The translations under genes and the position numbers were made by a program. From Methylomonas rapida (GTDB lineage: Bacteria; Pseudomonadota; Gammaproteobacteria; Methylococcales; Methylomonadaceae): a DNA stretch of 64,000 nt. The DNA lies in assembly GCF_024360925.2 (NCBI RefSeq), contig NZ_CP113517.1:1798001-1862000 (forward strand), written 5' to 3'. Under the pieces are notes generated by a model. It made no database searches. It saw nothing but the letters and a program-made list of their open reading frames with translations, and had not been told where the DNA came from. Each line of letters starts with the position of its first letter. The stretch's first letter is position 1. Shown piece after piece: positions 21,971 through 32,089 of the stretch.

Positions 21971-22469
21971 CAGGGATTGATCAGCCTATCGCAAAAGTCA
22001 AAACGTTATTCAAAACAGGCGGGCGGCAAGCTGGATCAAGCGCCGTCCGCAGTCATCATCACGAGGTGAGTCGGCTAATCATGGGTGTTTGGCCTTGCCG
22101 TCGCAGGTAAAGTAAACTATTTCGGATTGGTGTGGTTGATTGCCAGGCGCGCCGGCTTCGTGGCGAATAATGGTTTTTGACTTGCGCCGGTCGGGCTCAT
22201 GATGAACTGTCAAAAAATTTTACAAAACCAAACAGCAATTGTTTTTCGTTGATATGGGATGTCAATGAATTCAAGGGTTTATTTTTTTTGGTTCGCGGTT
22301 TGCTTATAAATGGAGGCTTGATAGTCAAAAGTCTAGCGTCTTTGTTATGTCTGTGTTAATGACTCTGACGGAGATATATCGGCGCTGAGGCGGACAAGCC
22401 TTTTATAGGTGTCTATTTATATTGGATGTAGGGAATTTTTCTATAAGAAAAAACAATTAATTCTTCATT
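21971..22469. other. Intergenic region without recognised gene
   Basis: About 500 bases after rluB. A fragment CGCAAAAGTCAAAACG near 21990 resembles a family B end. No conserved reading frame, tRNA or strong hairpin was seen. Confidence 0.5.
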
Positions 22470-22566
22470 GAGGAACTTGCAAAATACCACTATTAGTGGC
22501 CAATTAATTTTAAAAACCACTATATCTAGTGGTTTTTGCGTAAAATTTCATAATTTTGCAAGTACC
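22470..22566. repeat. 97-bp inverted-repeat element with nested palindromes
   Basis: Outer arms GAGGAACTTGCAAAAT (from 22470) and ATTTTGCAAGTACCTC (to 22566) enclose two further palindromes: CCACTA-T-TAGTGG at 22487-22499 and AAAAACCACTA-TATC-TAGTGGTTTTT at 22512-22537. The inner hairpin, flanked by A and T runs, would work as a terminator in both directions. The inner palindromes share CCACTA. Confidence 0.7.
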
Positions 22567-22608
22567 TCCATTGAATGCGGATTTTGGGTTGAATCCATGA
22601 CGATGTTA

Positions 22609-22717
22609 GGGATGTGTGAGAAATAAGCCAGGCAATGGTAGGTGCGAATTCATTCGCGCTGTGCGGATAAATCCGCGCCTACACCGAAGGCTTGTATAGT
22701 TATTTGATGTTCATTCC
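22609..22717. mobile_element. Family C MITE, 109 bp, TSD TTA
   Basis: Ends GGGATGTGTGAGAAATAAG and, on the other strand, GGAATGAACATCAAATAAC; direct repeats TTA at 22606-22608 and 22718-22720. The core is GGTAGGTGCGAATTCATTCG facing GGATAAATCCGCGCCTAC. Other copies: 26849-26958, 38038-38146 and a remnant at 48232-48278. Confidence 0.8.
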
Positions 22718-22748
22718 TTAGTTTCATGGCTTTGTTTAGGGGGGAGGA

Positions 22749-23576
22749 ATGAGAGTTATCAGCAATGTTTTTGTTTTTGAAGCCGATTATATATTCTCGG
22801 CGGTTTTGAAAGGATATTGCTATGCCAATAAAGTCAATTTTTCCGAAAAGGGATTTGATGACGAGGGTATTGAGGAGGCTATAAAAGTTGGTCCTTCTTT
22901 AATTTTTTTACCCATCGATATATTGAGGTCCAATCAATCCAAAACAGAAGTGCTAAAAGCCTTGAAGGGCAATGACGGAACTGTTATTTGCGGATTGCTT
23001 GATTCCGACGTTATCGATTCAGACGATTTGGATGATTTGATTGATATACGGTTGGTTACTACATCGGATATTTCAGAGATAGATGCTTTTATCAAAAGGC
23101 ATTTTTTGTTGCTGAATTATGGGTTGCAAGATAGGCGCTGCACTGAAAGGCGATCAATGGGCGATAGGCGTGTTGCGTCGATTGCGGATATTTTAGGCGG
23201 AACCAGGCGACCGACTGGCTTGAGCCATCAAACGTATGATGACGACGCATGCAAAAATGAACGGTTAAGAATTGATCACCGTAATAAATGTTTGTTCTTG
23301 AATGGGAAAAAGGTCGATTTGACGCGCAAGGAATACGCGCTGTTTGAATTGTTATCAACCGATACGGATCGTGTATTCGCGGCCGATGAAATTATTGATT
23401 ATCTGTGGCCGGAAAATAACCGGGCGACGAAGTCAGACCTCTATCAATACATGCATTTGCTCAGGAAGAAAGTAGAGAAAGATCCCAATAACCCTCGGTG
23501 GATTCTGACGATTAAAGGTTTTGGTTATAGACTCAACCTGAACGCCAGTGAAATTCTCAGGGAAGAGGTTTTGTAA
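22749..23576 (+). CDS. OmpR/PhoB-type winged-helix regulator with degenerate receiver
   Basis: A 275-residue regulator. The C-terminus (residues 175-265) is a winged-helix DNA-binding domain: KKVDLTRKEYALFELLSTDT, LWPENNRATKSDLYQYMHLL and RWILTIKGFGYRL. The N-terminal 115 residues have a receiver-like rhythm but no acidic pocket: where the phospho-Asp would be the sequence is LIFLPIDIL. The linker carries an Arg cluster (DRRCTERRSMGDRR) that recalls PilZ-type or nucleic-acid-binding segments. Start ATG at 22749 has GGGGAGGA. It precedes the amyloid-type locus on the same strand and is the natural candidate to control it; a phosphorylation-independent signal is likely. Confidence 0.85.
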   Translation: MRVISNVFVFEADYIFSAVLKGYCYANKVNFSEKGFDDEGIEEAIKVGPSLIFLPIDILRSNQSKTEVLKALKGNDGTVICGLLDSDVIDSDDLDDLIDIRLVTTSDISEIDAFIKRHFLLLNYGLQDRRCTERRSMGDRRVASIADILGGTRRPTGLSHQTYDDDACKNERLRIDHRNKCLFLNGKKVDLTRKEYALFELLSTDTDRVFAADEIIDYLWPENNRATKSDLYQYMHLLRKKVEKDPNNPRWILTIKGFGYRLNLNASEILREEVL

Positions 23577-23722
23577 TATCTTTTAAGCAAGACGGCATAA
23601 CCGTTTTGAAGCGGAATATTGTGGAAGAGACGCATTTTCACGGCCGATGGCTTATCCATGTCGAGCCATATCTCGTTCCTGCAGCATTTTTTGAAATAGT
23701 TTTGCATTTATTTCTTGAACAT

Positions 23723-23768
23723 GAAAAAACGATTAACCTGATATTCATTCAAAGTTAGTCGTTTTTTC
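23723..23768. terminator. Hairpin terminator after the regulator gene
   Basis: Arms GAAAAAACGATTAAC and GTTAGTCGTTTTTTC (one mismatch) around a 16-nt loop, about 150 bases after the regulator stop. The T-run lies in the 3' arm, as in bidirectional intrinsic terminators. Confidence 0.55.
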
Positions 23769-23835
23769 TTGTGCAAAAATCCAATTCCAGCGTAAACCGG
23801 GACAGTTTTTGGGCCCCATTCATGATGATCTTGTC

Positions 23836-23920
23836 GAGCCATGAACCGCAAGTTCTTTGACATGGCTCTCCTGGGCGAAGCCGAAGGACTCGGGACGAAC
23901 GGCTGTTCCGTCTAAAATCA
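23836..23920. other. Rest of the gap before the amyloid-type gene
   Basis: GAGCCATG ... CATGGCTC forms a hairpin at about 23836-23868, followed by a decayed family E unit (CTGGGCGAAGCCGAAGGACT). No gene was found in 23577-24204; the promoter of the next gene should lie near 24000-24180 but no convincing -35/-10 pair was picked out. Confidence 0.4.
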
Positions 23921-24204
23921 GTAGCCACAAAATTCATTATTTTGGCAGGGAATGCCGAATCCTGACTTCCTCTCCGTCGCTTCTAATGCTATTCAGGCCT
24001 GCATGAACGCTTGGAATCAGCAGTGTTAATAAGGTTTTTGAGTTTGTTTTGATGTTGCTTTTATGGATATTTAAGGAGATTTTTTAAGAAACTGTCACCG
24101 TGGTAGCGAAAGGTTCAACTCTCTAACATTGAATCAGATGTTCCACCCATGTCGGATTTAAGTGTCTGATGGAATTCGAAACTTACCTTCTAGGAGTAAC
24201 AGTT

Positions 24205-25596
24205 ATGAAACAATTCAATAAAACATTATTGGCTACCGGTATTTTTTTGGCTTTGGGTTCTGCGTCAGTTGCTTGGGCGCAAGAGCCGCCTGCGGATGCC
24301 TTGCCTACAATACAAGACGGTATCGATTTGACCAAGACCAAAGGTGAAGGCAATGCTTCTACTGTTGGTGCCGGCAGCTCGACGAGTACCTTTACTGAAG
24401 ACAGTAACAATACTCTGACCAAAAACGTCACTGACAACGACACAAAAACCATCACCAAAACAGAGACTGAGAACAGCAACAACACGCTGACCAAAAACGT
24501 CACTGACAACGATACAAAAACCATTACCAAAACAGAGACTGAGAACAGCAACAACACGCTGACCAAAAACGTCACTGACAACGACACAAAAACCATCACC
24601 AAAACAGAGACTGAGAACAGCAACAACACGCTGACCAAAAACGTCACTGACAACGATACAAAAACCATTACCAAAACAGAGACTGAGAACAGCAACAACA
24701 CGCTGACCAAAACAGTCACTGATACCAGAACCATTACCAAAACTGAAGATAGCAACAATACCATTACTAAAACAGAGGACAGCAACAACACGCTGACCAA
24801 AAACTACTCAGAAACCGATACGAAAACCATTACAAAAACTGATTCAAGTGTAAGTTCGTTCGGTAAAGTTAAAGGCGATGATGGCGCTGCAAGCGTTGTA
24901 GGAGGTGGCTCAGCAACTACTGCCTATGCGGAAGATAGCAACAATACAAAAACCATAGATAGCAATAACACATTGACAAAAACCGAGACCGATACAGGTG
25001 GTATTGGCGAGGATGGCAAATCCAAAGCCGAAGACAATGCGGCTTCTGTAAATGGCAGTGGCACGGCTTCAACGACAAACACCAATACAAAAACGAATAA
25101 CAGTGTCGCGGAAAATGGCAAAACCAAAGCCGAAGACAATGCGGCCGCCGTCAATGGCAATGGCAGTGCAACCACCAATAATCAAAAAACCATTGCCAGT
25201 AACAACTCCGATAGCAGTACAAACAATAAAAGCGAAGCCGACGGCGATGGTTCTGCTTCATCCAACACGGGCTCAGCTACTTCAACCTACACTGATGTAA
25301 CCGCGCGCGCGTTTGGCCCTGCGTCTCCCGCCATTGCGAGTACGGGTGCCGTTTCCGTTAACAATTCCTATCTGTCAGGCAGCGTGACCGGCGCTGGAAC
25401 GGTTGCGTATTTGCCAGCGGCAACCGATGCCGAAGGCAGCCTGATTCCTGTGGTCAGTAACAATATCGATAGTTCCTACAACAACTTTGCCGGTATCAAT
25501 CAATCGGTACAAAACGCAGGTAATGCTTCGTTGGCTCAACAACAAGTGTCATTCCAAGGCAATGTCAACGTAACCCAGCCTGCTGTTGCTCCCTAA
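24205..25596 (+). CDS. Secreted Asn/Thr-rich repeat protein, putative amyloid subunit
   Basis: A 463-residue exported protein. The signal peptide is cut near SVAWA-QEPP. Residues 65-195 are tandem copies of a 24-residue unit (NSNNTLTKNVTDNDTKTIT core), four nearly identical at DNA level with 72-bp period, then shorter variants. Residues 215-370 hold a second looser repeat built on KAEDNAASVNGSG. The C-terminus has NNIDSSYNNFAGINQSVQNA. It has no Cys and is rich in Asn, Thr, Ser and Gly, as functional amyloid subunits are. With the C39-type and FapF-like genes downstream, a FapC/FapB-like role is the best reading, though the repeat itself is not the Pseudomonas FapC repeat. AGGAG precedes ATG 24205. 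Confidence 0.65.
   Translation: MKQFNKTLLATGIFLALGSASVAWAQEPPADALPTIQDGIDLTKTKGEGNASTVGAGSSTSTFTEDSNNTLTKNVTDNDTKTITKTETENSNNTLTKNVTDNDTKTITKTETENSNNTLTKNVTDNDTKTITKTETENSNNTLTKNVTDNDTKTITKTETENSNNTLTKTVTDTRTITKTEDSNNTITKTEDSNNTLTKNYSETDTKTITKTDSSVSSFGKVKGDDGAASVVGGGSATTAYAEDSNNTKTIDSNNTLTKTETDTGGIGEDGKSKAEDNAASVNGSGTASTTNTNTKTNNSVAENGKTKAEDNAAAVNGNGSATTNNQKTIASNNSDSSTNNKSEADGDGSASSNTGSATSTYTDVTARAFGPASPAIASTGAVSVNNSYLSGSVTGAGTVAYLPAATDAEGSLIPVVSNNIDSSYNNFAGINQSVQNAGNASLAQQQVSFQGNVNVTQPAVAP
24400..24720. repeat. 72-bp tandem repeats inside the amyloid-type gene
   Basis: At least four consecutive 72-bp units that differ mainly at silent positions (GACAACGACACAAAAACC versus GACAACGATACAAAAACC). 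Near-identity at DNA level points to recent expansion and possible copy-number change between strains. Confidence 0.9.
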
Positions 25597-25686
25597 AGCC
25601 AGTTTAGGAGGCTCTAATTGCATTGGAAAAATAGATCGATGATTTTTCTGAAGTAATTCATTAGAGCCTGCCTTTACGGCTTGTGT

Positions 25687-25716
25687 TTTCCGGTGAGGAA
25701 GCAATTCCTCACCGGA
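25687..25716 (+). terminator. 13-bp GCAA-loop hairpin between amyloid-type genes
   Basis: Perfect arms TTCCGGTGAGGAA and TTCCTCACCGGAA closed by a GCAA tetraloop, 90 bases after the repeat-protein gene. No T-run follows, so partial termination or protection of the upstream mRNA is likelier than full termination; this would raise subunit output over downstream genes. Confidence 0.6.
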
Positions 25717-25749
25717 ATTTCCTTGGTAAGATTGATAAAAGGAGCAAAC

Positions 25750-26106
25750 ATGAAAGTGGCAATGAAATGTTCCTTCTCGATTCTTCTTGTGGCGTCTTTG
25801 CAAGGTCCTATGGCCATTGCCGACGAACAAGGAGAGGCATTTTTAGAGCGGGCAGAGGTTGCTTTGCTGGATGAGCTCGATGATCAGCGGGGACGCGGCG
25901 GCGAAGTCGACATCGTCACGTTAAACAATCAGAATGTGGCGGCTTTGTTACGCGGCAATACTGCCATTAACAACGCAACCGGTCACAACATGATCGATAA
26001 CGGTTCTTTTGCCGGTGCCAGCGGCTTAATTTCGGTCGTACAGAATTCGGGCAATAATGTCATCATTCAAGATTCCACTATTGTGAATGTTACAATCGTA
26101 CCTTGA
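25750..26106 (+). CDS. Small secreted protein with a GG-like motif, amyloid locus
   Basis: A 118-residue protein with signal peptide (CSFSILLVASLQGPMAIA, cut before DEQGEA). Residues 30-52 read AEVALLDELDDQRGRGGEVD: an acidic helix with E-L followed by RG-rich residues, similar in layout to the double-glycine leader motif cut by C39 peptidases, although degenerate. The remainder is Asn/Ile/Val-rich (NNQNVAALL, NNATGHNMIDNGSF, SGNNVIIQDSTIVNVTIV) and strand-prone, like a minor amyloid subunit. AAGGAG lies seven bases before ATG 25750. It sits 23 bases upstream of the C39-type gene. No named family recognised. Confidence 0.65.
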   Translation: MKVAMKCSFSILLVASLQGPMAIADEQGEAFLERAEVALLDELDDQRGRGGEVDIVTLNNQNVAALLRGNTAINNATGHNMIDNGSFAGASGLISVVQNSGNNVIIQDSTIVNVTIVP

Positions 26107-26129
26107 GTGTTTGATTACCGCATCCGTGT

Positions 26130-26822
26130 ATGAGACTAGCATATCGATTCCTTGTATTGTTTATGGTGTTCATGAATGATTGTTATGCTGGCTCGGTTGA
26201 GTTATTCGGTTTGGCGGGCGGGGCAGTATTTTCCGTTCCGGTGACCAGTTTCGCAGAGAGGCGCTTTAAGACGGTATATAAGCAGCAATATGATTTTAGT
26301 TGCGGTTCCGCGGCTTTAGCCAGTTTATTGACTTACCATTACGATGATTTGGTCAATGAACAAACCGTGTTTGTTGATATGTATAAAAACGGTGATCAAC
26401 AAAAGATTCAAAAACTCGGTTTTTCCTTGCTGGACATGAAACTGTATCTGGAGCGCAGAGGTTATGTGGCCAACGGGTTCAAGATAGACCTGGATGGTTT
26501 GGTAAAAGCAAATGCACCGGCCATTACCATTATCAACAACAAGGGCTATCTGCATTTTGTCATTATTAAAGGCGTTAGCGAAGATGAGGTATTGATTGGT
26601 GATCCTGCCGCAGGTGTCAAGGTAATCCCCAGGGAAGAATTCGTGAGCATGTGGGAAAACAGAATTTTGTTCCTGATACACGACAAGTTCGATACGGCAG
26701 ATAATCATTTTCAGGATAAAAAAGAATGGGCTTTGAGAACCAAGGCTCCGTTGGAGTTAGCGGTTGATCGCGAAAGCTTGGCCAGATTTCAACTTTTTCT
26801 GCCCGGTAAATGGGATTTCTAA
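26130..26822 (+). CDS. Secreted C39-type cysteine peptidase (FapD-like)
   Basis: A 230-residue protein with an N-terminal signal sequence (FLVLFMVFMNDCYA) and a C39-like papain-fold domain. The oxyanion Gln and catalytic Cys are in KQQYDFSCGSAALASLL, the His in GYLHFVIIKGV and the Asp/Asn position in VLIGDPAAGVKVIP. C39 domains usually cut double-glycine leaders inside ABC exporters; stand-alone periplasmic forms such as FapD occur in Fap amyloid operons. Two neighbouring secreted proteins carry GG-like motifs, so they are the likely substrates. Codon use is AT-richer than the core genes. The last 30 residues (DRESLARFQLFLPGKWDF) are outside the domain. Confidence 0.82.
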   Translation: MRLAYRFLVLFMVFMNDCYAGSVELFGLAGGAVFSVPVTSFAERRFKTVYKQQYDFSCGSAALASLLTYHYDDLVNEQTVFVDMYKNGDQQKIQKLGFSLLDMKLYLERRGYVANGFKIDLDGLVKANAPAITIINNKGYLHFVIIKGVSEDEVLIGDPAAGVKVIPREEFVSMWENRILFLIHDKFDTADNHFQDKKEWALRTKAPLELAVDRESLARFQLFLPGKWDF

Positions 26823-26848
26823 ATCCTTGTTTGATGCATGAAGCGTTG

Positions 26849-26958
26849 GGAATATGCGAGAAATAAGCTCGACAATGGTAGGTGCGAATTCATCCGCGCA
26901 TTACGGATAAATCCGCACCTACACCGAATACTTGCATGGATTATTTCATGTTCATGCT
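26849..26958. mobile_element. Family C MITE (second copy)
   Basis: Ends GGAATATGCGAGAAATAAG and a decayed ATTTCATGTTCATGC; flanks TTG and TTA do not match exactly. It lies between the C39-type gene and the next amyloid-locus gene. Confidence 0.7.
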
Positions 26959-27052
26959 TTAGCGCCGATGGGGTGTCAAGGAGTGTGGTGTTGAAAACCA
27001 TGGAAATGTGGTGTCAGCCAATTTGCGGGGCTCTCGCTAAGAATAAATTCTT

Positions 27053-27222
27053 CGTTGTCGTAACAGTTCCTCTTCTTGCGGGAAACGGGCTGGATTGAGA
27101 GAAGTAATAATTTAAACACTTGATTTATATTCCCTCATCCTAACCTTCTCCCCTCGGGAGACGAAACTGTTTTGACTTTTACGACACCCTATAGGGAAAT
27201 TTATTTATGACCATATTCTAGG
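27053..27222. repeat. Family B repeat next to a family A-type end
   Basis: Left TTGTCGTAACAGTTCC and right GAAACTGTTTTGACTTTTAC arms mark family B (to 27189). Directly after, AAATTTATTTATGACCATAT resembles the right end of the elements at 54856 and 55861. The remaining bases to 27433 hold no gene; this gap splits the amyloid locus. Confidence 0.55.
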
Positions 27223-27433
27223 TATGGGCGAGCTTTCGATGATGTTTGCGTACAAGGGCGATAGATAGCGCTGTCCCCGATTTTTGCCGATTTATCCCGC
27301 AAGCCGCCGAAAAAACCTACCGCAACATTGACGACTCTCCGGGAAACTCGGTGTTACATCCTGTGCCGGGTTGAGTCCAGTGCTTTTAATCCACTGACTT
27401 CGATCGGTGTGTGTCTAGTTAAGGGTGATTACG

Positions 27434-27928
27434 ATGAAAAAACATTTATTCGGTGATCTAATCTATCAGCTCGTTGGCAAGATTTTGGGGGCGATTTTGT
27501 TGATGGTCTGTATCGTGGGCCAGGCTGGTGCCGTCGACGATATGGCTTTGAAAAAGGCTTTTCTGGCGGCCTTGGTGCCGGCATCCGACGAAGAGCTGGC
27601 CGAATTGAGAGGTGGTTTTGTGTTGCCAAATGGCATGAATGTCGAGTTCAGCGTTGAAAAAATAGTTTCTATGAATGGAATGATCACGTTTTCGTCCACA
27701 TTCAATATGCCGGCCAATATTTCCTTGATACAAAATGGTCTTGGTAACGAGGCGCCTGAATTTCAGGGGCCTGTGTTAGGTTCCGTGGTACAAAATAACC
27801 TCGATGATCAATTCATCAGTACCTTAAAAACCATCAATATTGAACTGAGCAACCTGAGGAACAGTATCACCCCGGCGCAGCGGGCTTTGGTTGCTAGTGA
27901 TTTAGCGGTGCCTAATGTTAATAGATGA
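27434..27928 (+). CDS. Secreted protein with double-glycine motif, amyloid locus
   Basis: A 164-residue exported protein. A long N-terminal signal (VGKILGAILLMVCIVGQAGA) is followed by VPASDEELAELRGGFVLPNG. The stretch SDEELAELRGG fits the C39 leader rule (S-x-x-E-L-x-x-hydrophobic-x-G-G) at every key position, yet it sits after a Sec signal rather than at the N-terminus, so cleavage would have to occur in the periplasm. The mature part is strand-prone, with polar residues (MNVEFSVEKIVSMNGMITFS, LGSVVQNNLDDQF). GTG at 27425 is an alternative start. Likely a FapA/FapE-like accessory protein, or a cleaved minor subunit. Confidence 0.65.
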   Translation: MKKHLFGDLIYQLVGKILGAILLMVCIVGQAGAVDDMALKKAFLAALVPASDEELAELRGGFVLPNGMNVEFSVEKIVSMNGMITFSSTFNMPANISLIQNGLGNEAPEFQGPVLGSVVQNNLDDQFISTLKTINIELSNLRNSITPAQRALVASDLAVPNVNR

Positions 27929-28068
27929 CTTGAAATATTATGCTTATTGTACTATTTTATAAACAGTTTTTAGTTGATAAGCGTTTGGGGTGGCTCTGCA
28001 TCTGATGCGTTTCAGATAATCATGCTTATCGGCGATTGTCCTTGATGATCAGGTAAGGTTGAGCATAG

Positions 28069-29454
28069 ATGAATGCGGAACAGACATTGGATTTTTCTAG
28101 AACCAGAGATGTTGGCAAATTTGTAGCGTTTGCCGGTGTTTTATTGATGTCCAATGCGGTAACCGTGCAGGCGGACGAGGAAGAAATTCTCGAGCAATAC
28201 AAAAAATTATTGGCGCAACAACAAAAGGAATTCGAAGCGCAGCGGCAGATCATTGCAAATCAAGGCAAGGAACTTGAGCAGCTAAAACAGCAAATGAATG
28301 CCTTGTTGTCGCAAAAGGCGGAGAATAAACAACCCACGCCCACGGAAAATGCCACTAGAGAGCCAACCCCGCCACCACCCCAAGCTACAGTCGTAAGTCA
28401 GGCGCCAAAAGCGGAGCCTGTGAAACCAGTAAGTCCACCCGGTCAATTGCCAAGCAAGCCTGTTGGTCAAGCGCCGGCCGAAGCCACGGAAAAACCCAGA
28501 CCACCGGAAATTCCACGCCTGAGTGACGAAGTTGGCGGGGTATTGACCCGTAAAGGAAATTTCGTTGTCGAGCCATCCTTTCAATACGGTTATACCGATA
28601 ATTCCAGGGTATTTTTGGATGCGTATACCTTTATCCCTGCCATTGCGATTGGCTTGATCGATATTAGACAAATCAAGCGCCATACACTGATGGGAAGTCT
28701 TGCGGGACGTTATGGCTTGACCGATCGATTGGAGCTGGAATTAAAAGCCCCATATGTTTATCGTTCCGATACGCAACGCTCCCGCCCGGTCAGCGTCAGT
28801 GCGGCTACGGACGAGACATTCGAAGCCGATGGCATGGACATAGGGGACATAGAATTCAACGCTCGCTATCAGTTGACCGATGGTGCGGGCGGCTGGCCTA
28901 TTTTGGTAGGAAACATGGCGGCGACAGTGCCAACGGGTACGAGTCCGTTCGATATTGAATATGTTGCCGCACAAGGCGTTCCAGGCGCGACGTATCCTAG
29001 TGAGTTGCCTACCGGGGTTGGGTTTTTTAGTTTTCAACCCAGTGTAACGGCCCTGTATCCAACCGATCCGGCGGTCTTTTTCGGTAACCTGGGTTATATC
29101 TGGAACGCTGAAACCAGCGAGGATTTCGGTAAATACGATCCCGGTAACGCAATTGGACTCAGTTTTGGTATGGGTTTCGGCCTCAATGAGCGTTCATCCT
29201 TCAGTTTGGGATATTCGCATAGGCACGTTTTCAATTCAGCGGTTAATGGAGAAACTATTGAAGGCAGTGAATTGGATATTGGCCAATTCATGGTGGGCTA
29301 TTCATTCAAATATTCGCCAAGAACCACCTTCAACCTCTCATTGGGTATCGGTACGACGGATGATGCCCAGAATGCTTATTTGAATCTTAGAGTGCCGTTT
29401 ACGTTCGACACCAAATCGCCTTTCAATTTCGATTTCTTCGGCCCGCCTTCATAA
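28069..29454 (+). CDS. FapF-like coiled-coil outer-membrane barrel protein
   Basis: A 461-residue exported protein. Signal peptide FVAFAGVLLMSNAVTVQA is followed by a coiled coil (residues 42-85, EEEILEQYKKLLAQQQKEFE), a Pro-rich linker (residues 90-145) and a beta-barrel of about 300 residues with alternating aromatic strands (FVVEPSFQYGYTDNSRVFL, SSFSLGYSHRHVF, FMVGYSFKYSP). This is the architecture of FapF, the trimeric pore that exports Fap amyloid across the outer membrane. It closes the locus, after the repeat protein and C39-type peptidase. Other phenol-pathway-type barrels (MetA-like) share the barrel but usually not the coiled coil. Confidence 0.78.
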   Translation: MNAEQTLDFSRTRDVGKFVAFAGVLLMSNAVTVQADEEEILEQYKKLLAQQQKEFEAQRQIIANQGKELEQLKQQMNALLSQKAENKQPTPTENATREPTPPPPQATVVSQAPKAEPVKPVSPPGQLPSKPVGQAPAEATEKPRPPEIPRLSDEVGGVLTRKGNFVVEPSFQYGYTDNSRVFLDAYTFIPAIAIGLIDIRQIKRHTLMGSLAGRYGLTDRLELELKAPYVYRSDTQRSRPVSVSAATDETFEADGMDIGDIEFNARYQLTDGAGGWPILVGNMAATVPTGTSPFDIEYVAAQGVPGATYPSELPTGVGFFSFQPSVTALYPTDPAVFFGNLGYIWNAETSEDFGKYDPGNAIGLSFGMGFGLNERSSFSLGYSHRHVFNSAVNGETIEGSELDIGQFMVGYSFKYSPRTTFNLSLGIGTTDDAQNAYLNLRVPFTFDTKSPFNFDFFGPPS

Positions 29455-29506
29455 ACCAGTCGCCGATGAAGCATTTCAAAGCCCGATGATCCTAAAAACA
29501 TCAGTA

Positions 29507-29637
29507 GTCCACGAAAAGCACGAAAGACACGAAATAAAACAGATGGTTACGTCACTTGATTTAGTTGCCCGCAAGGTGTCGGCTTTTTGAGCAATAACTT
29601 TTTGAAACTGTTCGTGATTTTTGTGTGTTTCGTGGAC
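29507..29637. repeat. Inverted repeat with TTCGTGGAC ends
   Basis: GTCCACGAAAAGCACGAAAG at 29507 faces TTTGTGTGTTTCGTGGAC ending at 29637. Resembles short dispersed repeats rather than a terminator; lies between the barrel gene and bglX. Confidence 0.55.
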
Positions 29638-29683
29638 CAAATGATTTTTATAGGATGATGGAGCTTCCGTTTGGCGTCTACTT

Positions 29684-29709
29684 CGTTCCCATACTTCGGT
29701 ATGGGAACG
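29684..29709. terminator. 11-bp stem with TTCG loop
   Basis: CGTTCCCATAC-TTCG-GTATGGGAACG, a perfect stem with the highly stable UUCG tetraloop. The arm sequence is a variant of the GTTCCCATG arms of family A. It may protect the 3' end of the amyloid-locus transcript. Confidence 0.55.
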
Positions 29710-29839
29710 CATGAGCTGAAATAGCAGGGGCGTGATCCTCGCGGCGTGAGCCGGCGCTTTATTTCTGTTCTGCCCAAGCCGTTGGGCATGCCATAATTAT
29801 CGCCTTTAAACCTTCGTTTACAGAGCGAGAATTCGTCCC

Positions 29840-32089
29840 TTGAAAATCCCAAAAATCATTTCGGTCTTTTCCTTATTTGCGATAGTGGAGTCTGCCGTGA
29901 GCGCACAAGAAACAAGCGAGGCCATCGAAAACAAAGTCCAGGCCTTGCTGGGGCAAATGACGCTGGAAGAAAAAGTCGGGCAGATGACGCAGATCGATTT
30001 CAGCGTGGTTTCCGTGGTCAATGGCCAGGATGCGGAAAATCCGATCGACCAAGCCAAGCTGGAGGATGCGATCCTGCATCACCATGTCGGCTCCATCCTG
30101 AATACGCCGACCACGCCGAACAACAAAGCCCAGTCGATCGAGAAATGGCGCAAAATGACGCAAACCATCCGGGAGACCGCGGCCAGAAGCCGGCTGAAAA
30201 TACCGGTGATTTATGGCATAGACGCGATCCACGGCGCGACTTATACGCAAAATGCGGTGCTGTTTCCGCAGGCCATCAGCATGGCGGCCACTTTCAATAC
30301 CGAACTGTCGTTCAAGGAAGGTGAAATTGCCGCGCGGGAAGTCAAGGCTTCCGGTTTGGATTGGAACTTCTCGCCGGTGATGGACATTGGGCGCCAGCCC
30401 TTGTGGCCCAGACTCTGGGAAACCTACGGCGAGGACGTGCATTTGTCCAGCGCGATGGGTACGGCTTACATTAAAGGTCATCAGGGCGACAACATGGCGG
30501 ATGCCGACAAGGCGCCGACCTGTTTGAAGCATTATGTCGGCTACAGTTATCCATTGAACGGCAAGGATAGAACCCAGGCCTGGATCGGCGAGCGGGCGCT
30601 GCGAGAATGGTTCTTGCCTGGTTTTCAGGCCGGCGTGCTGGCCGGCGCGCCGACCGTGATGATCAATTCCGCCGAAGTGGACGGCATTCCGGGGCATGCC
30701 AATTACCATTATCTGACCGAGATCCTGCGCGGCGAAATGGGTTTTAACGGCTTCACCGTATCCGATTGGGAAGACATTATCCGGCTGCATACGCGGGACA
30801 AACTGGCGGCGACACCCCGCGAGGCGGTCAAGATGGCGGTGATGGCCGGCGTCGATATGAGCATGGTGCCGTTTGATTTTTCTTTTTACGAGCTGTTGCT
30901 CGATCTGGCCAAGACCGGTGAGGTGCCGATGAGCCGCATCGACGAGGCCGTTTCGCGCATCCTGCGGGTCAAATATCAAACCGGTTTGTTCGAGCGCAGC
31001 GAGCCCGCGCTGGCCGTGGAGGGCAATTTCGCTACCGAGGAAGCCGTCGAGGTCAACAAACAGGCGGCGCGTGAGGCCATCGTGTTGGCGAAGAACGACA
31101 ATGAAATGCTGCCGCTGCGCAAGGACGTCAGCATCCTGGTGACGGGACCTACCGCCAATTTGCTGAGCGTGATGAACGGCGGCTGGACCATCACCTGGCA
31201 GGGCGACGCCGAAGAACTCTATCCCAAGGACAGGCCGACGCTGCTGCAAGCGCTGCGCGCGAAGACCAGCGGCAAGGTCACCTTTGTCGGTGGTCAGCGG
31301 TTCAGCGACGAAATCAACATCGAGCAGGCCGTGACTGAAGCGCGCAATCACGATGTCGTGATATTGGCGTTGGGCGAAAAACCCTATTGCGAAACCCCCG
31401 GCAATATCGATTCCCTGACGCTGGACCCTGTGCAAATGCAATTGGCCCGAGCAATTTTCGAGATCGGCAAGCCGGTGGTTTTGGTGACCTTCGGCGGCAG
31501 GCCGCGCATCATCACTGAAATCGCCGACAAGGCCAGGGCGGTGGTACTGGGCTTTTTGCCCGGTATGGAAGGCGGCGAGGCGATGGCCGACATTCTGTTC
31601 GGCGACGTCAATCCAAGCGGCAAGTTGCCGCTGTCCTATCCGCGCGCGGTCAACGACATATTGCCCTATGACCATAAGCCCATCGAAGCCTACGAAGGTA
31701 ACCAGTACCGGCCGCTATATCCCTTTGGGCATGGCTTGAGTTACACCAGCTTCGAGACCAGCGGTTTGAAACTGGACAAAAGCCAAATCAAGCTTGGCGA
31801 TAACGTTGAGGTCAGCGTCAGGGTTAAAAATACCGGGCAGCTTAGCGGCAAGGAAACGGTATTGCTGTATTTGCATGACGCGGCGGCGTCGGTGTCGCGG
31901 CCGGTCAAGCAGTTGAAGGGCTTCAAAAAAGTCGAATTAAAGCCCGGCGAGCAGCAAAGCCTAGAGTTCACGTTGACGCCGGAAGACATGAGTTTCATCG
32001 GCTTGGATATGAAACGCGTGGTCGAGCCCGGCGAATTTCAGGTCATGGTCGGCGGTGAGATGGCGAGCTTTACCGTGCTTAAAGACTGA
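29840..32089 (+). CDS. bglX: Periplasmic GH3 beta-glucosidase (BglX-like)
   Basis: A 749-residue glycoside hydrolase family 3 enzyme, exported by a signal peptide (IISVFSLFAIVESAVSA). The first domain has MTLEEKVGQMTQID, GIDAIHGATY and the nucleophile Asp in FNGFTVSDWEDIIRL; the second has ILALGEKPYCETPGNI-like blocks, and a fibronectin III-like domain ends the protein (ETVLLYLHDAAASVSRPVKQ). It removes terminal glucose from beta-linked oligosaccharides such as cellobiose in the periplasm. The sugar transporter gene follows 12 bases on, which suggests the freed sugar is imported. Start is TTG at 29840; no closer ATG gives a signal peptide. Confidence 0.93.
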   Translation: MKIPKIISVFSLFAIVESAVSAQETSEAIENKVQALLGQMTLEEKVGQMTQIDFSVVSVVNGQDAENPIDQAKLEDAILHHHVGSILNTPTTPNNKAQSIEKWRKMTQTIRETAARSRLKIPVIYGIDAIHGATYTQNAVLFPQAISMAATFNTELSFKEGEIAAREVKASGLDWNFSPVMDIGRQPLWPRLWETYGEDVHLSSAMGTAYIKGHQGDNMADADKAPTCLKHYVGYSYPLNGKDRTQAWIGERALREWFLPGFQAGVLAGAPTVMINSAEVDGIPGHANYHYLTEILRGEMGFNGFTVSDWEDIIRLHTRDKLAATPREAVKMAVMAGVDMSMVPFDFSFYELLLDLAKTGEVPMSRIDEAVSRILRVKYQTGLFERSEPALAVEGNFATEEAVEVNKQAAREAIVLAKNDNEMLPLRKDVSILVTGPTANLLSVMNGGWTITWQGDAEELYPKDRPTLLQALRAKTSGKVTFVGGQRFSDEINIEQAVTEARNHDVVILALGEKPYCETPGNIDSLTLDPVQMQLARAIFEIGKPVVLVTFGGRPRIITEIADKARAVVLGFLPGMEGGEAMADILFGDVNPSGKLPLSYPRAVNDILPYDHKPIEAYEGNQYRPLYPFGHGLSYTSFETSGLKLDKSQIKLGDNVEVSVRVKNTGQLSGKETVLLYLHDAAASVSRPVKQLKGFKKVELKPGEQQSLEFTLTPEDMSFIGLDMKRVVEPGEFQVMVGGEMASFTVLKD

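Follow-up and report, generated by a model that had tools for sequence, protein, structure and literature searches.

The Fap operon of Pseudomonas (FapABCDEF) encodes a C39 peptidase, FapD, which is periplasmic and whose active-site Cys is needed for the secretion of FapC; the C38A substitution abolishes secretion (PMC5557850). Work on Pseudomonas did not settle what FapD cuts (PMC5557850, PMC6173800). A 2025 review relates that the enzyme is thought to process the N-terminus of FapE and the periplasmic region of FapF (PMC12822426), and a paper on serrapeptase writes of FapC modification by FapD (PMC10638192). In Pseudomonas sp. UK4, FapE alone was without peptides from its first ~70 residues in mass spectrometry (PMC5557850). 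The published recognition pattern of C39 peptidases comprises hydrophobic residues at -12, -7 and -4 and GG, GA or GS at -2/-1, Ala at -12 permitting only partial processing by LahT150 (PMC6363468).

The window analysed here is a 64,000-nucleotide stretch of Methylomonas rapida DNA (contig NZ_CP113517.1), in which positions 24205..29454 hold a Fap-like locus made up of FapC-like, FapX, FapD-type, FapE homologue and FapF-like genes. As the first-pass annotation had stated, these are five ORFs, all on the (+) strand; the order fapC-D-E-F is kept apart from the insertion of FapX, and in the list of exported ORFs of the locus none looks like FapA or FapB. The FapC-like amyloid candidate (24205..25596, +, 463 aa, Sec signal) was assigned by its place and repeats, and its gene contains a 72-bp tandem array (24394-24722). 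Its family has 74 matches in 63 of 141 loci, and the family profile matched none of the eight Pseudomonas-type loci (L153-L160), so that homology to Pseudomonas FapC was not found by a search which the repeats make unreliable. Between this gene and the one at 25750 lies a 13-pair hairpin followed by a T-rich tail (25688..25717, +), the longest stem among the five terminator-like sites of the region (shuffle mean 7.6). The FapF-like outer-membrane protein (28069..29454, +, 461 aa) has an N-terminal coiled-coil-like region and a barrel; it scores 155 bits over residues 24-446 with NCBIfam FapF (NF058560), below the cut-off of 700, and its family profile matches 8/8 of the loci L153-L160. A winged-helix (OmpR-type) regulator (22749..23576, +, Pfam Trans_reg_C), homologues of which occur at 20 further fapD loci among those fetched, possibly controls the locus.

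The FapD-type exported C39 peptidase (26130..26822, +, 230 aa) scores 71.5 bits with Pfam Peptidase_C39 (PF03412; gathering cut-off 22), and the Gln, Cys, His and Asp seen in place at first pass are Q52, C58, H142 and D158. All four are invariant in an alignment of 15 peptidases; among 143 relatives Q52 is found in 142/143 and C58, H142 and D158 each in 143/143. The FapD profile aligns with the LahT150 peptidase 6mpz (E 2.4e-15), Cys, His and Asp falling opposite one another. With 140.1 bits against a cut-off of 330 for the FapD equivalog (NCBIfam NF058616), the enzyme is related to FapD and belongs to a separate clade: in the FapD tree it lies in a clade of 104 rows, and the Pseudomonas-type enzymes in one of 19.

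The FapE homologue (27434..27928, +) has 164 aa from its ATG, an alternative GTG start lying at 27425. It carries a predicted Sec signal (residues 1-33, the signal-peptidase site after A33 being placed by a custom rule) and a C39-type leader (34-61). The leader motif, A50-S-D-E-E54-L55-A-E-L58-R59-G60-G61 (27581..27616, +), starts 17 and ends 28 residues downstream of A33, and the proposed cut is G61|F62. The SDEELAELRGG that had been read here as a double-glycine match is one, with A50, L55 and L58 as the hydrophobic residues at -12, -7 and -4 and G60-G61 at -2/-1. The protein scores 15.4 bits with the FapE equivalog (NCBIfam NF058559; cut-off 250), over residues 48-74 only. Its AF2 model (mean pLDDT 72.6, pTM 0.42) places a helix at 52-58, then GG, then strands, and a fold search with this model returned no match at E <= 0.001. 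The homologue is present in 13/121 genomes of the family, and fapD adjoins it in all 13 (one fapD being interrupted by a contig end); no second FapE or FapX copy was found in the M. rapida genome at E <= 1.

Across 103 nonredundant FapE-type proteins the leader is conserved at L(-7) (99/102, the other three Met), R(-3) (102/102), G(-2) (99/103), G(-1) (100/103) and F(+1) (89/103), and position -12 is V, A or L in 94/102. Position -4 is Leu or Met in just 58/102, which counts against the leader reading. Conservation in FapE runs on beyond the motif in either direction, and the motif might accordingly be a piece of the fold or a docking site.

The motif is tied to the peptidase by more than chance. 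In 80 named loci, L...RGG occurs in 74/200 small exported proteins encoded on the fapD strand no more than 4 kb away from that gene (63 loci positive), against 0/265 of the others in these loci, that is, proteins more than 4 kb from fapD or on the opposite strand, and 0/120 of the M. rapida genome background; signal peptides were called by a custom rule, and counts are limited to proteins under 330-340 aa. The pattern [EDQ]h..h.G[GAS] gave 32/200 near fapD, 3/265 among others of the same loci and 1/120 in the background. A downstream L...RGG protein is found in 75/80 named loci; it is absent from L076, L085, L087, L089 and L100, with close variants at L076, L089 and L100. In six loci (L073, L088, L108, L113, L118, L123) the downstream protein is longer, and its L...RGG lies between residues 153 and 281, away from the signal.

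The leader score and pattern CA, both devised after part of the data had been seen, were applied to newly fetched loci, where 16/32 same-strand exported proteins score at least 7 against 1/25 others, and 11/32 match pattern CA against 2/25. This set began as 30 loci, of which L235, L241, L247 and L255 were excluded beforehand as overlapping; among the remaining 26, at least L245, L252 and L263 share proteins with L071, L073 and L089, and at L236, L239, L253 and L257 the peptidase frame went unrecognised, so that their exported proteins are counted among the 25 others. A score threshold of 5.5 was too loose (263/464 near, but 70/534 other and 17/130 background), and the looser pattern CB was rejected (L213-L232: 18/49 near, 11/44 other, p 0.16; 20/120 background matches). 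By the rules used, 6/143 peptidases are without a leader-scoring exported neighbour (L118, L166, L228, L188, L178, L190), which counts against the leader reading. At L166 a FapE leader is present and was overlooked by the signal rule; at L118 a longer protein has the motif, at its residue 153.

That the motif is a mere structural element of the FapE fold, a helix cap ahead of the first strand with FapD uninvolved, is quite unlikely, even though conservation goes on past it. Similar leaders stand beside FilB-like peptidases (34/60 near against 3/41 others) on proteins whose mature parts form 23 groups among 32 tested, and a similar leader is also found in FapX, for which AF2 gives a mostly disordered, low-confidence model with a helix at 40-46 within the leader.

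FapX (25750..26106, +, 118 aa) is a small exported protein of FapE-type kin with a C-terminal amyloid-repeat-like segment; hhalign gives it 97.6% to the FapE set and 89.9% to the FapB set over the repeat segment. Its identity as a FapA homologue was rejected, no profile matching. The residues E42-L43-D-D-Q46-R47-G48-R49-G-G belong to the stretch first described as a degraded motif, DELDDQRGRGG. The site is indeed degenerate, but it is Arg49 that aligns at -1, rather than the last Gly of the GG which follows: the leader runs from A38 to R49 (ALLDELDDQRGR; 25861..25896, +), with L43 (-7) and G48 (-2) aligned to the FapE motif. With Q46 at -4 and R49 at -1 it falls outside the C39 double-glycine pattern. 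Position -1 of the FapX-side proteins is R in 40, G in 33, S in 24, K in 9 and M in 9 (n=136). FapX carries a weaker form of the FapE-type leader and may be bound, perhaps cut, likewise, the case for processing being weaker for 25750 than for 27434.

Neither of the other two partners commends itself as a target. All 25 FapC-like proteins listed score 5.5 or less for the leader; three, the window's among them, reach 5.5, as do 70/534 control proteins. The FapC-like amyloid lacks a convincing C39-type leader, so it would not be cut by FapD, and FapC was rejected as its target. FapF was rejected likewise, as the GG that precedes the barrel varies among 130 FapF-like proteins (Gly in 45/130 and 92/130 at the two positions).

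The Pseudomonas-type proteins bear on the cut site itself. Fap-type FapE, theirs included, has the same leader with G(-2) and R or K(-1) in 15/15, and hhalign of Fap-type against window-type FapE aligns the same leader (95.7%, E 8.6e-9), supporting homology of residues 1-79; an iterated profile of the window FapE family matched no protein in L153-L160. The strict GG rule fails in the Fap-type set L153-L172 (2/76 near, 0/59 others) because position -1 is Arg or Lys. Homologues lacking GG beside a retained C39 gene had been named by the first-pass annotation as evidence against its proposal, and literally they exist. They retain the leader otherwise, so it is the cut-site letter that has changed and the pathway is not refuted. 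Of the post-Sec motif that the first-pass annotation had suggested looking for, L(-7), G(-2) and G(-1) are almost fixed in the 103 FapE-type proteins.

Known C39 sites have Gly, Ala or Ser at -1, and the Arg or Lys of Fap-type sites counts against cutting. This is one of the observations that would be expected if the motif were a docking signal rather than a cut site: FapD would hold on to FapE-type proteins at their leader, and its proteolytic activity would be required for another substrate, such as the FapF linker. Certain C39-like domains do bind substrate without cutting (PMC5557850), FapE is conserved on either side of the motif, and the motif lies deep within the six longer proteins. 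We consider docking alone unlikely, in view of the Cys and His retained in 143/143 peptidases, the FapE N-terminus missing in published mass spectrometry (PMC5557850), the canonical GG of the window and the unfixed Gly positions before the FapF-like barrel.

A possible adjustment of the enzyme to position -1 was seen at residue 136 of FapD, numbered as in the window's enzyme, where it stands six residues ahead of His142. It is Asp or Glu in 17/18 peptidases with R/K at -1 of the downstream leader (exception L169) against 8/81 others, and the match recurs in 8/9 further loci (exception L248), L166, outside the main table, being a third exception. When the starred branches of the tree are used, the covariation comes down to 2 independent pairs, or to 4 if every branch is used, which is not significant. 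Where an upstream leader has R at -1, residue 136 is usually Asn (34/42), against a simple charge rule. We treat this charge match at the cut site as a lead only; it rests on essentially one clade.

We regard it as probable that the accessory subunits of the Fap-like locus mature in two steps, by signal peptidase and then by FapD, the FapC-like amyloid remaining uncut. In its favour, the leader is conserved next to FapD-type peptidases and fits the published recognition pattern (PMC6363468), and published data have FapD periplasmic and catalytically required and FapE lacking N-terminal peptides (PMC5557850). The periplasmic signal-peptidase-then-C39 maturation proposed at first pass is therefore supported for the FapE-type leader, but not for the amyloid subunit, no FapC-like protein among the 25 listed scoring above 5.5. 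That maturation ends with the signal peptide, the leader being retained as part of the fibre, is very improbable: N-terminal peptides are absent from FapE specifically in Pseudomonas sp. UK4, and the FapD Cys is needed (PMC5557850).

The genes, the catalytic residues and the conservation and position of the leader are observed; we infer the cut itself and its purpose. In two-step maturation Sec would export the FapE homologue and signal peptidase would take off residues 1-33; free periplasmic FapD would bind the short helical leader A50-L58 through the -12, -7 and -4 residues and cut after G60-G61, so that mature FapE would begin at F62 with its beta domain. Once freed of its leader, FapE would probably be able to interact with the FapF-like barrel and set off the secretion of fibres. 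Judged from sequence, the small exported proteins of the locus bear a second, probably removable tag of C39 type, and FapE-type proteins are what FapD, the amyloid protease, is likely to cut.

The comparison yields a residue-level, directly testable proposal for the FapD substrate. Arg or Lys at -1 leaves Fap-type FapE without GG, which may explain why the site went unrecognised, and a tryptic digest would not distinguish a FapD cut there from a trypsin cut; the GG version in the window takes this ambiguity away. We found no prior description of this post-Sec leader in the titles and abstract openings searched, preprints and most subscription journals lying outside their coverage.

Small Sec proteins adjoining FilB-like peptidases have similar leaders (MDxVTAG, LxxVEGG) and mostly dissimilar mature parts. 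We lean somewhat towards regarding FapD and FilB-like enzymes as one widespread periplasmic C39 family, serving an ABC-independent pathway of Pseudomonadota through Sec, C39 leader removal and a FapF/FilC-like barrel. Its substrates would be marked by a post-Sec leader, h-x3-[EDQ]-[LM]-x2-h-x-[GA]-[GRKQ], and would comprise Fap accessory subunits and several undescribed small exported families, often several per locus. If FilB-like loci work likewise, a single leader rule would reveal many unnamed exported proteins.

Among described systems, the locus resembles the Pseudomonas Fap operon in its Sec-exported FapC-like protein, C39 FapD, FapE and FapF-like protein, encoded on one strand in the same order, and in the equivalent place of the FapE leader; it differs in its separate FapD clade, in FapX between fapC and fapD, and in having GG where Fap-type FapE has GR or GK. 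The Fil putative pilus system (FilA, FilB, FilC) likewise has a FilB-like C39 peptidase and a FilC-like barrel, and FilA-like proteins bear a post-Sec leader such as ITGQ, but the window proteins fall below its curated cut-offs, the peptidase scoring 116.2 bits against a FilB cut-off of 475 and the barrel 59.9 against a FilC cut-off of 630. With the double-glycine leader systems of the peptidase-containing ABC transporters LahT, ComA and PCAT1 the locus shares the peptidase family and the -12/-7/-4/-2/-1 pattern (PMC6363468); unlike them, its peptidase is free and exported, and would meet its substrate after Sec, in the periplasm, with no ABC transporter.

The five genes of the Fap-like locus, encoding a FapC-like protein (24205), FapX (25750), a FapD-type C39 peptidase (26130), a FapE homolog (27434) and a FapF-like barrel protein (28069), all lie on the + strand, and their coordinates agree with the first-pass annotation. 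The product of the third gene belongs to the C39 peptidases (Pfam, 71.5 bits); its nearest NCBIfam model is FapD (140 bits; cut-off 330) and the second FilB (116 bits; cut-off 475), neither cut-off being reached. The barrel protein is closest to FapF (155 bits; cut-off 700), followed by FilC (60 bits; cut-off 630). The peptidase has its nearest named relative in Methylomonas lenta (71% identity), so a methanotroph of the Methylomonas group is the probable source of the window. The FapD profile aligns with LahT150 (6mpz; E 2.4e-15), and the catalytic residues of the two fall in register. The peptidase reading frame of one fetched locus, L239, contains an internal TGA. The NCBIfam FapE model weakly matches the 27434 protein (E 0.008) over residues 48-74, a stretch which includes the leader motif.

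The post-Sec leader noticed in the first-pass annotation is real and widely conserved. In exported proteins of <330 aa the first 70 residues after the predicted signal peptide were scanned for L...RGG. At 80 named loci this motif occurs in 74/200 proteins (63 loci) encoded on the fapD strand no more than 4 kb from that gene ("near") versus 0/265 of the remaining proteins of these loci ("others"), and in 0/120 background proteins from 400 kb of the genome that contains the window. The corresponding values are 18/49 versus 0/44 for 20 further loci, 4/76 versus 0/59 for the Fap-type set, and 0/60 and 0/41 for the FilB-like set. A literature-type pattern, [EDQ]h..h.G[GAS], was found at the named loci in 32/200 near proteins versus 3/265 others. 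A leader score which disregards position -1 (the last residue before the proposed cut) reached ≥7 in 148/464 near proteins, 4/534 others and 2/130 background proteins; in a newly fetched set of 26 loci, including three or more repeats of earlier ones, it did so in 16/32 same-strand proteins versus 1/25 other proteins.

Residue frequencies for 103 nonredundant FapE-type proteins encoded downstream of fapD define the motif V/A/L(-12), E(-8), L(-7), L/M(-4), R(-3), G(-2), G(-1), proposed cut, F(+1), with E(-8) in 49/102, L(-7) in 99/102, L/M(-4) in 58/102 and R(-3) in 102/102. The GG end lies a median of 28 residues past the predicted signal (79 proteins; range 18 to 163; >75 in four). An AF2 model of the 27434 protein, of moderate confidence, places a helix (52-58) before the two glycines, which lead into the first strands. 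For this protein the proposed maturation by signal peptidase and then C39 peptidase appears right in its main line as far as sequence tells, the leader being conserved and of the C39 type. Longer proteins downstream of fapD at L073, L088, L108, L113, L118 and L123 (295-403 aa) carry L...RGG mid-protein, at residues 153-281; they may possess an extra N-terminal domain ahead of the leader, be fusions, or have a wrongly assigned start.

FapX is related to FapE-type proteins (hhalign, 97.6%) and, in its C-terminal segment, to the FapB amyloid repeat (89.9%); a profile comparison with FapA gave no match. In its leader L43 is invariant in 60 proteins and G48 is present in at least 90%. In the window protein, -4 is Gln and -1 is Arg; several homologs elsewhere have leaders ending in RGG or TGG. 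C39 processing of FapX at this degenerate leader is conceivable, with a weaker case than for the 27434 protein. The suggestion that amyloid subunits are processed found no support, the FapC-like amyloid having no convincing leader. A long perfect hairpin (25688-25717) separates the major-subunit gene from the remaining operon, and possibly sets the ratio of their expression.

FilB-like and outlying-branch peptidases are flanked by small Sec proteins with leaders such as LTETQMDNVTAG, MTESQLAAVEGG and LAPSELDKVQGQ. Another pattern, [LIVM]...[EDQ][LM]..[ILVM].[GA][GASRKQ], matched 34/60 near proteins versus 3/41 others at FilB-like loci, 19/200 versus 1/265 at named loci, 16/76 versus 1/59 at Fap-type loci, 5/49 versus 0/44 at extra loci, and 0/120 in the background. 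The post-motif parts of 32 FilB-like-locus proteins (14 loci) fell into 23 groups (phmmer, E ≤ 0.001; a weak test with such short sequences), which suggests that most have little in common besides the leader. Ten neighbors (eight from FilB-like or outlying loci, one Fap-type FapE and one at the FapA place) were scanned against families: one gave a below-threshold match to the Pfam double-glycine bacteriocin family (E 0.007), one exceeded the DUF6160 cut-off and also matched FilA below cut-off, one exceeded the FapE cut-off, and the remainder matched no family above its cut-off. On this evidence FilB-like loci may follow a similar leader rule.

The source genome is a single contig of 4.59 Mb. 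Within the order, FapD matches (E ≤ 1e-20) occur in at least 21 genomes out of 121; the 14 other listed genomes of the genus have none. A peptidase above the FapD cut-off was present in 8/398 genomes, and in a further sample the outlying-branch profile (E ≤ 1e-25) matched 45/369 genomes of the class, the window FapD counted. The G+C content of 22001-30000 is 0.42-0.48, compared with about 0.5-0.57 across the greater part of 1-22 kb and 30-52 kb; together with the lack of fapD in the listed congeneric genomes this points to possible acquisition of the locus. The final 10 kb of the window is also low in G+C. One genome (G641) carries seven FapD/FilB-like C39 genes, and tandem fap duplications occur at L171 (fapC-fapX-fapD-fapE) and L161 (a second set). 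The fapD-fapE gap in the window is about 600 bases, and in many relatives the genes nearly touch; pieces 26849-26955 and 27069-27190 are fragments of interspersed repeats, the stretch giving 45 genomic matches including itself, most to one element of about 110 bases. A winged-helix regulator (22749-23576) has homologs in 20 other fetched fapD loci; no Pfam family matches its residues 1-185.

A charge match between substrate position -1 and FapD residue 136 is no more than a lead: it is not independent of descent on the tree, has three exceptions (L166, L169, L248), and is not obeyed by the upstream leaders.

At all eight Pseudomonas-type loci whose peptidase exceeds the FapD cut-off, FapE carries a leader soon after its signal peptide, for example LKDAEMAELRGR with Tyr at +1. 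In these and seven FapE from related loci (n=15) Gly(-2) is invariant and -1 is always Arg or Lys, whereas window-type FapE nearly always has Gly at -1. The two profiles align over residues 1-79 with leaders in register (95.7%, E 8.6e-9); an iterated HMM of the window FapE family did not reach Fap-type FapE. In Rouse et al. 2017 (PMC5557850) the canonical C39 sequence is described as absent from Fap proteins and the FapD target as unclear, FapD C38A abolishes FapC secretion, and for FapE alone no peptides were detected from the first ~70 residues. The leader found here fits those data, and a FapD cut at GR/Y would be indistinguishable from trypsin's own. Reviews of 2018 (PMC6173800) and 2025 (PMC12822426) treat the FapD substrate as undetermined or presumed, and the accessible parts of PMC3684753 and PMC11787515 hold no cleavage-site information. 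The leader moves the proposed FapD site to near the signal peptide, and it gives FapD a concrete, testable substrate rule. According to PMC6363468, LahT150 recognizes Leu(-12)-X3-Glu(-8)-Leu(-7) followed by GG/GA/GS, in a leader whose positions -4 to -11 form a two-turn helix; mutations showed -12, -7 and -4 to be important and -8, -5 and -3 to be tolerant of change. The FapE-type motif is the pattern read by C39 peptidases in bacteriocin precursors.
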